Shown here: positions 15,269 to 45,146 of the stretch, piece by piece
Numbering within the stretch: position 1 is the first letter of the stretch
Layout: the number at the start of each line of letters is the position of its first letter
From: Sulfurospirillum multivorans DSM 12446
GTDB lineage: Bacteria; Campylobacterota; Campylobacteria; Campylobacterales; Sulfurospirillaceae
Reading direction: 5' to 3'
NCBI RefSeq assembly: GCF_000568815.1
Contig: NZ_CP007201.1
Span: 3,109,654-3,173,653, forward strand
DNA length: 64,000 nt
Translations under genes and position numbers: made by a program
Notes under the pieces: generated by a model
Told to the model about the DNA's origin: nothing
The model's input: only the letters and a program-made list of their open reading frames with translations
The model's database searches: none

Positions 15269-18144
15269 CTACCCCCTTGCCTTTTCAAAATTGACCGCGC
15301 CATCGTAGGCGTATTGATTTCCATCCCAAAGTCCCCCAAACTTCAAGTGCCCCCAGCCATCCGCCATCTCCAAAAGATTGAGCGCTGTTGGTACGACTTC
15401 ATTATGTCCTCGTTTATTTTTGTACATATACGGTTCCCATCCATCTTCTAAAACAATACCATCGGGTGGACACGAAGAGCTCAATTTTGCCATCGCATAA
15501 AACTCGCCAATAGCGTTAAAAATGCGAATCGAATCGCCGTCTTTAATCCCCTTCATTTTAGCCACTTCACGATTCACTTGAATCGCAGGAACACCTCTTT
15601 GTAAACGAAGCAGGGTACGGCTTGTTTTGTAATTGGAGTGAATACTCCATCTTGCATGCGGTGTTAACATGGCAAACGGATGGGCTTTAGTATCGGGACG
15701 AATGCCTTGCATACCGGTGTTGGTTTGTGCTCCCATCTTAATGTACATATCATGATCCACGTAAAAGGTTTGACGACCGCTGAGTGTCTCTAGGCGTTGA
15801 AATTTAAAGAGATGATCTTCGTTAGAGTTAAACGGACGATCGGCATAGAGTGGTGAACTTTTCGCCGCTTTTTCGTTAAGCTGTAAAAAACCACCCGTTT
15901 TGTACATCTTCTCAATCGTCCACGGCTCATACTGCACACAGTTCGCCAATGCTGCTTCCACCGCTTGCTTGTCAGTGCCTAAGAGTGGCTCCATCTCAGA
16001 GCGACTCTCTTCATCGCTGTTCGTAAACTCTTGATGCACGATGCTTAGGTCATGAAAACCCTCTTTGGCATAGCGTTTGTCATCTTTGACTTTGGCTTTC
16101 TCTTTGTTCTCAGGCTTATTGGCAATCGCTTCAAGCTTTTTGGTAATGAGCGAGAACATACTCCACTCATCCATCGCTTCCCCCACAGGTTTGAGGTTTT
16201 TAGCCGGTTGTGCTAGGTTGGTAAAGCGATGATACCCAGGGCTTGAGCGTATATCCCACACCTCGTAGTGGCTTTTGGCTGGCAGTAAGATGTCGGCATA
16301 GACAGCCGCTTCACTCATACGTGTATCAACATACGCAAAATATTTGGTCTTTTTCAAGAAGGCTTCTTTGTAGTCACTGCCTTTGTTACGCCTAAACTTC
16401 GCATCGGCAACGATAAGCGCAATTTCAGGCGTCCAGTGTGGCTTGACCCCTTTTTCTTTGCCGTCTTTGCCTTTTTCAAGAAGCAATGAAACAACCTTCA
16501 TATACTCCTCTTTACTCATACCATTTTGCGCACGTCTGACATCGGCATCACTAAAATACTTCTCAAACGTCTTCATACCATCGCCCAAAATAAACTCACC
16601 CACAAAACCTGAGCCAAAGCGTGCAGTGTATTTGCCACTAAAACCGCTGAGTGCTTCCAGACCGCTGAGTTGGAACTCGTTTTCCGTATTCAAACCGCCA
16701 TACGGTCCCATGCGTCCTGTTAAACCGCAGATAGAAGCGATGTTCCATATAGACATCATTCCATTAAAGTATTTGTTCAAACTAAAACCTGTGGTAATCT
16801 CAACAACTTTTGGAAGTGCTATGTCACGGGCTAGTTGACGTACCGTGTCTGGATGCACACCCGTCTCTTTTTGAGTAGCTTCAGGGCTGAAGCGTACAGT
16901 GCTTCGCTTTAACATCTCAAAAACAGTGGTCACTTTCACTTTTTCACCATTTAGGAGTGTGACTTCAAATTCACCCTCTAACAGTGGCTCGATACCAAAG
17001 TCGCTTAGGCGCAGGGTTTTATGCTCACTTCCTTCACTTCCAGGCATGATGGCTGGCGCATTGGTTTTGGCATTCCATGCGTAAAATTGCTCATCAAAAC
17101 TGTGATGTTCTTTCTCGTCTTTTGCTTTTTCTACCTCTGAGCGTCGCAATAGTTTCTTGTTGTCAACTCTTACTAAAAAAGGAAGATCGGTATAGGTTTT
17201 TGCAAAAGCGGGTTTATACATCTTTGCATTTAAAATCTCATAGATAACACTCATAGCAAGGATATTGTCGCTCCCTGCTTTAATCGGTATCCAAAGATCC
17301 GCGGCTCTGGCACTGGCATTAAACTCAGGGGTAATGACGATGATCTTCGCGCCATTGTATTTACCTTCCCACACAAAGTGCGCATCAGGAATACGTGAGA
17401 CCGAAGGATTACCACCCCAAAAAACTGCGGTGTTAACCGTGTACATAAAGTCATACGTACACCCGAGGTTTCCCTCGCCATAGGCAATCGCCGCACCACT
17501 GAACATATCGCCAAGGTAAGACGCTGGATAAATTCTTACAGCACCCAACTGTGTTGAAAGTCTTAATGGTCCACCGCGTCTGCCTTCGGTTAAAAGACCC
17601 GTTCCTGCATGTACCATTAACTTCTCAGGGCCTTTTTTAGGGTCTGTCATAACATCCCAAATCTTTTGTGCGACTTCACTAGAGGCTTCATCCCAACTGA
17701 TGCGCTTCCATTTTCCCTCGCCCCGCTTGCCCATACGTTTCATCGGGTAGAGCAATCGGTCTTTTTCATACATAATCTGGGAGTGCTGCACACCCTTATT
17801 ACAGCCTCTTGGGTTAAAGTCTGGCACTTTTGCATTGATGAATGGATAACGTGAAGATTGATTTTCACGGGTGACTACGCCGTTATTCGACCAAATTTCC
17901 CACGAACAGTTGCCTTGGCAGTTGACACAGTGACACAGTGGTACGCAAAGCCATGCTCCTCTTTTTTACCGTACGTAAAGCCAAACTCATTGCGGTACAT
18001 CTCTTCGCTATAGCTGGTATTTGGGTAGTTCTCTTTTGCATTTTCGATTTTACTTACACCCGTCTTGGCAAACGCATACCCTTCCCCTGCGATCATCGCC
18101 GCAGTGGCACTGGAGATTTTTAAAAAGTCTCTTCGCTTTAGTAT
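15269..18144 (-). pseudogene. Type II DMSO-reductase alpha subunit, frameshifted
   Basis: Mo-bisPGD catalytic subunit of about 955 residues once an 8-bp duplication is removed. The Tat signal is KRRDFLKISSATAA. The Fe-S motif HCVNCQGNCSWEIW (H-x3-C-x3-C) follows near residue 68, as in NarG/SerA-type enzymes. Later blocks are NPRGCNKGVQHSQ, KWKRISWDEA, YGEGNLGCTYDFMYT and SRIPDAHFVWEGKYNGAK. The duplication CACTGTGT-CACTGTGT (coding strand) falls in the Fe-S motif and ends the frame 24 residues later. No ATG, GTG or TTG lies between the upstream in-frame stop and the Tat motif; only ATA at 18144 fits the GGAG site. As written it would not be functional. Confidence 0.85.
17924..17939. repeat. 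8-bp tandem duplication in the alpha gene
   Basis: GACACAGT occurs twice in direct succession. With one copy the reading frame of the type II alpha subunit is continuous through its Fe-S cysteine motif. Confidence 0.9.
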
Positions 18145-18155
18145 ATTCTTCTCCT

Positions 18156-19184
18156 CTATCTTCGTATCGGTAGGTTCATATCATTCGCCCATTCATCCCA
18201 ACTGCCCGTATACACTTTCACATTAGGATAGCCTAAAAGTTCAAGCGCCGTAATGATGTGTGAGCTTCTTCCTGCACCCACATGACAGTAAGCGTAGATT
18301 GTTTTGTCTTTGGTGATGCCATTTTGAGCAAAAAGTGCTTGCATTTTTTCTAACTCTTTGAAGGAGAGTTTTTTATCCATATCGGTGACATTTTTCCACT
18401 CAATAAACGTAGCACCTGGTATATGGCCACCACGAGCGACATTGTCCATTTTTCGCTCACCCATTATCTCTTCAAAACCTCGTGCATCAATGATCGCATA
18501 CGAAGATTTCTGCCCCTTTTGCACCAAATCTTCTACAGCTTTAAGCAGCTCCTCTTTACCTGCAATGTAGGTGTAATTGACTTTGGAAAGATCAATGCTG
18601 TACTGTTTTGGCACCCCTTTAACTTCAACACCTTTTTGCACGATGAGTTTTTTTTCTTGCTCTTTGAGCTGTAATGTGAGCGTTTCGACTAGAGTTTTAT
18701 CCTCTTTTGCCGCTTTGATCTGCGCTTTAAGCGCATCATAGATTTTCTGCTCAGGATCAGCCGCCATCATTGCTGCTCGTCCACCATTGAGGATTTTCAC
18801 CTTCTCATGCCCGTAGCTTTTAAAGTACGCATACACACCCGTAGCATTAGGCCCTTTAAAGTCATCATAGGCAATCACCAATGTGTCGTTTGCGATCCCT
18901 TTGCTTCCGATGTAATGCTCCGCCTCCTCTTTGCACATAAAAAGTGGTGCGCACTCCATTTGGCCCGTAGTGCTTGAATGATGCAAATGATGCGCATACA
19001 TCTCGACTGAGCCTTTGATGTGCCCCGTAGCATAAATGTCTTCGTCATCGCCCATGACAAACACCACTTTCTCTTGCCCGATCAACTTCATCGCATCTTC
19101 CGCTGAAATCAAGATGTCACTTGATGTAGCAGACAGCGTTGATACGATAAGTGAACCCAAGAGAATACCTCGTAACCATCCCAT
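18156..19184 (-). CDS. Periplasmic two-domain rhodanese (sulfurtransferase)
   Basis: 342 residues from the ATG at 19184, which has AGGAG upstream; an earlier in-frame start at 19259 has none. A Sec signal (about 1-20) is followed by two rhodanese domains. The first (about 25-140) lacks the catalytic Cys (YDDFKGPNAT). The second has it in YCHVGAGRSS near residue 300 and ends TGSWDEWANDMN, the CH2-type ending of SseA-like enzymes. It transfers sulfane sulfur to cyanide or thiols. It is the first gene before the molybdoenzyme alpha gene and ends 11 bases before its start, so it is in the same operon. Confidence 0.8.
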   Translation of the reverse strand: MGWLRGILLGSLIVSTLSATSSDILISAEDAMKLIGQEKVVFVMGDDEDIYATGHIKGSVEMYAHHLHHSSTTGQMECAPLFMCKEEAEHYIGSKGIANDTLVIAYDDFKGPNATGVYAYFKSYGHEKVKILNGGRAAMMAADPEQKIYDALKAQIKAAKEDKTLVETLTLQLKEQEKKLIVQKGVEVKGVPKQYSIDLSKVNYTYIAGKEELLKAVEDLVQKGQKSSYAIIDARGFEEIMGERKMDNVARGGHIPGATFIEWKNVTDMDKKLSFKELEKMQALFAQNGITKDKTIYAYCHVGAGRSSHIITALELLGYPNVKVYTGSWDEWANDMNLPIRR

Positions 19185-19375
19185 ATAAACTCCTTTTTGT
19201 AGCGTTTTTACACATAAAGAAAGGCGCAAATAACGGACTAACACACAATTTTTCACCATCAGATGCTTTAAAAGCCCATAAACAGCTGAAGTGTTACTTT
19301 ATATCCTAGTTATTTACTCGATTTTAGTCTGCCTTTACTTAACGTGATGTAAAATAAAAGAAGTATGATTAATTT

Positions 19376-19391
19376 GTTACATAATTGTAAC
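19376..19391. promoter_or_regulatory. Possible Crp/Fnr-type operator
   Basis: GTTACATAATTGTAAC is an imperfect inverted repeat in the divergent region between the rhodanese operon and the gene at 19409. It is near the form bound by Crp/Fnr-family regulators, but its identity is not certain. Confidence 0.3.
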
Positions 19392-19408
19392 TTAACTAAA
19401 GGAAACCG

Positions 19409-19774
19409 ATGCAATACCCTCAAGAGCCCTTCTACACACCCAAACATCTCCTTTCACTCTGGCAGTGTGGATGTTACATTCATACTCAAAATCTCATTAC
19501 GCTGGGTTCGGCGCTGGGCATGGAACTTCCCTTTAAAAAACGCTCTTCCCTCTTGCAAACATTGCTTTTACATGTAAAAGAGACCCACCAAGAACCAGTA
19601 TTTCTCTCTTTGATGAACGACCTTTTAGACCATAAAGCACAAACGCTGCATGAGAACATCGCGCACTATCCCAAAACAGCACGTTTGATGCAGCCGTGGC
19701 TTCAAAAAATAGAAAAAACCAAGCATCTTTTAAACCGAGAATTTGCTTTACATGTAAAGGAAAAACATGAATAA
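19409..19774 (+). CDS. Unknown 121-residue protein before mrp
   Basis: Cytoplasmic, mostly helical, no known family recognised. N-terminal cysteines (WQCGCYIHTQN) could bind a metal. It includes two LHVK segments (LLLHVKETH and FALHVKEKHE), both coded by TTACATGTAA copies. Its stop overlaps the mrp start by eight bases, so translation is coupled. AAAGGAAACCG lies before the ATG. The pairing suggests a role in Fe-S or molybdoenzyme maturation, by context only. Confidence 0.6.
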   Translation: MQYPQEPFYTPKHLLSLWQCGCYIHTQNLITLGSALGMELPFKKRSSLLQTLLLHVKETHQEPVFLSLMNDLLDHKAQTLHENIAHYPKTARLMQPWLQKIEKTKHLLNREFALHVKEKHE

Positions 19775-44426: not shown

Positions 44427-45146
44427 TTAAGCTTTTGAGGGAGTGCCCCAAATGAAAAGAACCTCAAACTCAAGGTAGGCGTGCGGGTAATTTTGAATGA
44501 GCGCCTTGGTTTGTGCTACATTCAAACGTCTTTTTCCGCCACTCACACCACTTTTTTTGATGTAACGAAAGGCGGAGAGATTGTCATCAAAAAAGAGGCG
44601 ATAGGTTTTGATTTCATGTTTACATGTAAAGAAGTTTTCAAACAGATGTATCAATGCTTTGGCGTTAGGTAAGAACGAGGGAAGCCCGCTTACATGGTAG
44701 ATACTTTCAAAGGTTTTATCGGTAAAAATAGCAAACGCGCCCTCTTTACATGTAAGACTCATTTTGGCGATTAACGCCTCAATATCGCTTGCCCATTGCA
44801 ATGCAGACGAGGAGATCAAAAGATCAAACGGTGGGTTGAGGCGAGAGAAAAGTGCAGACGATTCAAAGTCTTCACAGAAAATCTCAACCTCTTTACCTGT
44901 AGGATGCAGGTCACACATGCCTTGCGCACTATCCACACCTGTAAAATGCGTTATCTCCCAAGGAATATTTTTAAAAATAGCCCCACTGCCACACCCCAAA
45001 TCTAAAATGGTTTGAGGCTTTGAAGTAATCTGCGCAATCAAATAACGCGCGATCTCTTGTTGCAACGCGGTATGGTCATCATAACAATGGGCATTTTTGG
45101 AAAATTCTTTGGTATGTTGTGCGATCATTGCGGTTGGGATATCCAC
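44427..45146 (-). CDS. bioC: BioC-like malonyl-ACP O-methyltransferase
   Basis: 239-residue SAM-dependent methyltransferase. Motif I is LDLGCGSGAIF near residue 48; SSSALQWASDIEALI and the C-terminal KSGVSGGKRRL are typical of BioC, which makes the methyl ester that lets fatty-acid synthesis build pimeloyl chains for biotin. No other biotin gene is in view. The start may be the GTG at 45146 or the ATG of MIAQHTKEF six codons later. Contains two TTACATGTAA copies, read as TCK. Confidence 0.7.
   Translation of the reverse strand: MDIPTAMIAQHTKEFSKNAHCYDDHTALQQEIARYLIAQITSKPQTILDLGCGSGAIFKNIPWEITHFTGVDSAQGMCDLHPTGKEVEIFCEDFESSALFSRLNPPFDLLISSSALQWASDIEALIAKMSLTCKEGAFAIFTDKTFESIYHVSGLPSFLPNAKALIHLFENFFTCKHEIKTYRLFFDDNLSAFRYIKKSGVSGGKRRLNVAQTKALIQNYPHAYLEFEVLFIWGTPSKA

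Follow-up and report, generated by a model that had tools for sequence, protein, structure and literature searches.

The alpha subunit gene and its duplication

Has the alpha gene of a molybdoenzyme operon in Sulfurospirillum multivorans DSM 12446, a soil and sludge bacterium, been put out of use by an 8-bp duplication, and if so, how recently, and what enzyme went with it? The window that we analysed is the whole 64,000-nt stretch at positions 3109654-3173653 of the closed 3,175,729-bp S. multivorans genome. In the alpha gene, which lies on the - strand, TGACACAG is perfectly doubled within the Fe-S cysteine motif. The doubled sequence GACACAGTGACACAGT occupies 17924-17939, and the full period-8 run covers 18 bp (17923-17940, TGACACAGTGACACAGTG on the + strand), that is, 2.25 copies. 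The coding strand reads CACTGTGTC ACTGTGTC AACTGC at the duplication, and relatives have CACTGTGTGAACTGC or a synonymous variant. A whole-genome search finds the doubled pattern only once.

Taken alone, an 8-bp repeat is close to what chance would give, and only mildly unusual. With the background rate taken from the 64-kb window, we observe three period-8 runs of at least 16 bp against approximately 0.8 in first-order Markov simulations, and one of at least 18 bp against 0.08. A second perfect 8-bp tandem repeat, with a AAAGATCA-type unit, is found at 44813-44830; it is near chance expectation. We count the duplication in alpha as real because of the comparison with relatives at this site, not because such repeats are rare. 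All 11 orthologues in the genus have a single copy and an open frame at the site, which confirms the doubling that the earlier note had reported. In the alignment with the sister genome G006, the duplication is the only frame-breaking indel across the operon. It is unlikely, at the level of perhaps a residual doubt, that a sequencing or assembly artefact hides a real genome with a single copy and an intact alpha. Such an artefact would fit an operon that is otherwise intact and under purifying selection, as for a working gene, and this is what we see. Typical sequencing errors, however, involve single bases or homopolymers, which a perfect 8-bp tandem duplication does not resemble; the lack of any other broken frame relative to the sister genome argues in the same direction.

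A frameshift with a premature stop follows from the duplication. Reading from an ATA at 18144, the gene encodes a Tat signal (KRRDFLK) and roughly 70 residues that are still correct before the frame changes inside HCVNCQGNC, in the FS0 motif. A stop at 17875-17877 ends this 5' remnant (17875-18144, - strand) after about 89 codons in total, where the frames of the relatives stay open for 925-967 codons. The 3' part (15269-17827, - strand) is an open ORF of 852 aa starting from a GTG, with neither the Tat signal nor the FS0 motif. The frame downstream of the duplication is open to 15269 and there is no further frameshift in alpha; with one copy removed, a continuous frame of 955 codons runs from the ATA, as the earlier note had proposed.

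Alpha has the premature stop of a pseudogene at a place where its orthologues are intact. Relaxed selection and additional lesions, also expected of pseudogenes, are not found in alpha (dN/dS is 0.03, and the only other lesion is an ATA start shared with the sister genome). This absence of decay is expected if the loss is very young. Judged from the sequence, loss of function of alpha is very likely, in support of the claim that the frameshift inactivates the enzyme. The gene is a recent frameshift pseudogene from a divergent, uncharacterised branch of the type II DMSO-reductase family, and we hold with good confidence that a recent 8-bp duplication was the loss-of-function mutation in the alpha subunit of a putatively sulfur-linked, type II-like molybdoenzyme. 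It resembles other frameshift pseudogenes made by short tandem duplications in having a single small duplication, a premature stop and an otherwise intact operon, and nothing notable sets it apart from them but its youth and its position within the cluster motif. In the literature searched, we found no paper that deals directly with this pseudogene. In the type strain of S. multivorans, a model organohalide respirer, one of about twenty molybdoenzymes is then probably dead, and genome-based predictions that count alpha would be wrong.

The operon and its family

The other operon genes are intact, as the earlier note had stated, and those downstream of alpha are full length. All of them are on the - strand. 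Directly upstream of alpha is a rhodanese-like protein (18156-19184) with two rhodanese stretches and, by eye, a signal-peptide-like N-terminus. Downstream are the beta subunit, a 4Fe-4S protein (14162-15265); the gamma subunit (12981-14165), in which an ethylbenzene-dehydrogenase-type haem b domain (PF09459) is fused to a C-terminal cytochrome c domain; a conserved protein of 129 aa (12595-12984) that has no match in Pfam or NCBIfam; a TorD/DmsD-like assembly chaperone (12044-12604); a multi-4Fe-4S cluster protein (11031-12050); a small protein of 84 aa (10734-10988) with a weak match to DUF3862 below the gathering score; and a DUF4405 membrane protein (10171-10680).

The DUF4405 gene is the last one before a composite-transposon-like insertion of 6.2 kb (3922-10163), which ends approximately 10 bp from it and is absent from the sister genome. 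The insertion carries two copies of a Mutator-family transposase (3971-5174 and 8904-10106) that match exactly over approximately 1311 bp apart from one inserted base, which breaks the left copy, and it is flanked by the direct repeat CCTCACACTA at 3912-3921 and 10164-10173. The transposase has eleven matches in the S. multivorans genome, nine of them full length with a 100% identical protein, and has spread there recently.

Alpha matches TIGR03479 over its length, and scores below the cut-off of 984.75 bits both for the piece in the window (658.8 bits) and for an intact relative (L003, 749.5 bits). Because even the intact relative falls below the cut-off, we call alpha a divergent branch and do not give it the name of a reductase. 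Beta is above the TIGR03478 cut-off (510.8 versus 480.7 bits). Gamma is above the gathering score of PF09459 and below the cut-off of TIGR03477 (108.6 versus 169.85). The closest solved structures for alpha, both strong sequence-profile matches, are PcrA, the best one, and EbdA. ClrA and a haloarchaeal homologue have the same residues at the HX3CX3C FS0 motif and a downstream Cys (H81, C85, C89 and C124) and at D222, and in the window it is this FS0 motif that is out of frame. D222 aligns with the Asp column of PcrA, which we take to be the Mo ligand. The operon thus resembles the type II DMSO-reductase family (ClrABDC, PcrAB, EbdABC, DdhABC, SerABDC) in the Tat signal, FS0 motif and Mo-ligand Asp column of alpha, in a beta subunit above TIGR03478, in a haem b gamma subunit with PF09459 and in a TorD-like chaperone. 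It differs in an alpha subunit below TIGR03479 and only about 35% identical to ClrA, in the gamma subunit fused to cytochrome c, in the extra Fe-S and 129-aa genes, and in the constant upstream rhodanese. A literature search on type II enzymes in Campylobacterota found nothing directly on point.

A conserved module linked to rhodanese

A search of genome_contigs with alpha as the only query, so that rhodanese was not selected for, finds relatives of alpha at 64 loci. Rhodanese is upstream of alpha in every one of the 61 loci with room to show one, a linkage that the earlier note had missed. Across Campylobacterota, the gene order is rhodanese, alpha, beta, gamma, 129-aa protein, TorD-like chaperone and Fe-S protein, divergent from an mrp-like gene. 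The operon is a conserved module of Campylobacterota and Aquificota. An Aquificota locus (L074, 5838-20462) has two rhodaneses and a PF04143 sulfur transporter ahead of alpha and, directly behind it, an NrfD/molybdopterin set; another locus (L071) has a rhodanese and an ArsR-rhodanese fusion as neighbours.

Two further loci have irregular alpha genes. In a soil MAG (G017, locus L018), alpha has a frameshift near the C-terminus at about 7970-8083 and, by tblastn coordinates, is approximately 49 nts shorter; either another, independent loss or a fault in the assembly may explain this. At L081, alpha seemed to be multiply broken, and we rejected this case since the breaks coincide with runs of N.

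Psr with Sud is an example of a rhodanese-linked sulfur molybdoenzyme. Like Psr/Sud and the MOLY cluster (PMC12998232), the operon described here combines an exported molybdoenzyme tied to sulfur metabolism with a TorD-type chaperone. Psr and MOLY belong elsewhere in the molybdoenzyme superfamily, and an NrfD-type membrane subunit is missing from the Campylobacterota operon. In Thiovulum stygium, a six-gene operon has been published as narGH plus rhodanese, intact and with expression reported (PMC9938260). By gene order and description (compare L034, 8212-14404), it is most likely the same rhodanese-linked module as the one here, and not the nitrate reductase as which it is annotated there. 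A conserved rhodanese-linked, type II-like molybdoenzyme that has been annotated at least once as a nitrate reductase deserves attention.

What would the intact enzyme act on? The gene neighbourhood suggests sulfane sulfur, and not selenate, chlorate or nitrate, because rhodanese constantly precedes alpha. The cytochrome c fused to gamma is compatible with either oxidation or reduction. The earlier note had proposed an oxyanion substrate, which is probably wrong. If the enzyme were a selenate, (per)chlorate or nitrate reductase, its loss would remove that respiration. This assignment draws on PcrA as the best solved structure, on ClrA, about 35% identical, as the closest characterised homologue among those from plasmids, and on the narGH annotation of the seemingly same operon in Thiovulum (PMC9938260). 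S. multivorans, however, is listed as positive for nitrate, arsenate and selenate despite its broken alpha (PMC11406935). The same source gives S. barnesii as selenate-positive, and S. barnesii is not among the 64 loci found in genome_contigs; S. halorespirans is recorded as selenate- and arsenate-positive. The S. multivorans genome contains no member of the chlorite dismutase family (PF06778), and further molybdoenzymes remain complete in it, of the Nap, Arr-like, DmsA/YnfE, Phs and Ttr-like types. Together with the constant rhodanese, this leaves an oxyanion reductase as an outside chance, and sulfane sulfur as the substrate that we favour.

Age of the loss

Between the window and the sister genome, alpha has a dS of 0.34 and a dN of 0.010 (ratio 0.030). 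On the window branch, we count 23 synonymous and 8 non-synonymous changes, and on the sister branch 27 and 2 (Fisher p 0.08 between branches). Assuming that non-synonymous changes have been free since the duplication, the share of the terminal window branch that is possibly neutral is about 6%, and at most about 16%. The operon is a mosaic relative to the sister genome: its divergence swings from 0 to 18% per 300 bp, and near-identical blocks alternate with 8-18% divergent ones over 10100-19500 of the window, i.e. the pattern expected of recombination between Sulfurospirillum lineages. Because of this mosaic, the branch counts mix histories and the age bound is rough. Across the 60 members of the family, just two residues are found in the window alpha alone, both at columns that vary; one candidate at a family-invariant column was rejected, as it came from letters of the duplication junction read out of frame. 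The loss appears to be recent because the body of the alpha gene shows no decay, and the proposal of a fresh loss is borne out; the rough counts would fit an event before isolation or one after it, such as the loss in laboratory growth that the earlier note had raised.

The ATA start codon

Another feature missed by the earlier note is the start codon of alpha, an ATA in place of ATG (18142-18144, - strand) at a normal distance from an SD-like AGGAG (18155-18151). The window sequence has no in-frame ATG, GTG or TTG before the Tat signal. ATA is found only here and in the sister genome; the other relatives in the genus have ATG at this position. The sister genome (3,029,840 bp) is dehalogenase-positive and probably S. 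halorespirans, and a gene of the dehalogenase family is located near 1.49 Mb in S. multivorans. The start falls within the segment 18600-18065, about 535 bp in which the two genomes differ only once, so that a recent exchange may have brought the ATA allele from one lineage into the other.

The ATA would be either a weak working start, favoured by the strong purifying signal in the sister, or the mark of a gene already crippled in both species. One could then take it for the main lesion, with the duplication a later event in a silent or weak gene. In favour of this, ATA replaces ATG in the only two reductive-dehalogenase carriers among six genomes tested, and the nearly identical block may have carried it from one to the other. 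The sister alpha, however, is open, with the purifying counts given above. An ATA can serve as a weak initiation codon, this one is well spaced from its AGGAG, and the gene may still work in the sister. We regard an ATA-first loss as possible but doubtful, and keep the duplication as the inactivating mutation.

Course of events and reversibility

The duplication with its effect on the frame, the one copy in relatives, the purifying selection, the ATA start and the linkage to rhodanese are observations; that slippage was the cause, that activity is lost, that sulfur is the substrate and that events came in the order given here, we infer. The intact enzyme would be periplasmic, exported by Tat and linked to rhodanese; it would act on sulfane sulfur and trade electrons with a c-type cytochrome. 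The change from ATG to ATA, common to the sister species, may have weakened alpha before the duplication. At the HCV codons, the starting allele would have been CACTGTGTCA, where a 2-bp CA...CA microhomology eight bases apart was available, and replication slippage may have duplicated the 8 bp. Translation would then go out of frame within the FS0 motif and stop at about 89 codons, with no iron-sulfur motif and no molybdenum domain. Were translation to begin again from the GTG at 17827, the product would have neither the Tat signal nor the FS0 cysteines. The genes for beta, gamma, the chaperone and the rhodanese are still intact because too little time would have passed since the event for them to decay.

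Could slippage between one and two copies toggle the enzyme as a reversible phase variation, as the earlier note had suggested? Slippage could in principle remove one copy of a perfect tandem duplication and so bring about reversion, and the remainder of alpha is preserved. But the repeat has only 2.25 copies, its copy number does not vary among relatives (none of the 11 in the genus has a second copy), most of them lack the microhomology because their Val codon is GTG, and even a restored frame would have its expression limited by the shared ATA start. The literature search gave nothing directly on point for reversible short duplications. We consider a switch highly improbable, and an ordinary recent loss remains our reading.

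More tentatively, and with rather less than even confidence, the locus may represent an undescribed periplasmic type II-like molybdoenzyme, conserved in Campylobacterota and Aquificota, that takes sulfane sulfur from its partner rhodanese and passes electrons via the fused haem b/cytochrome c subunit. The reductive-dehalogenase carriers S. multivorans and S. halorespirans would be losing it stepwise, first by the ATA start and then, in S. multivorans, by the 8-bp duplication. Since S. halorespirans and S. arcachonense have intact copies, S. multivorans with its natural break can readily be compared with them.
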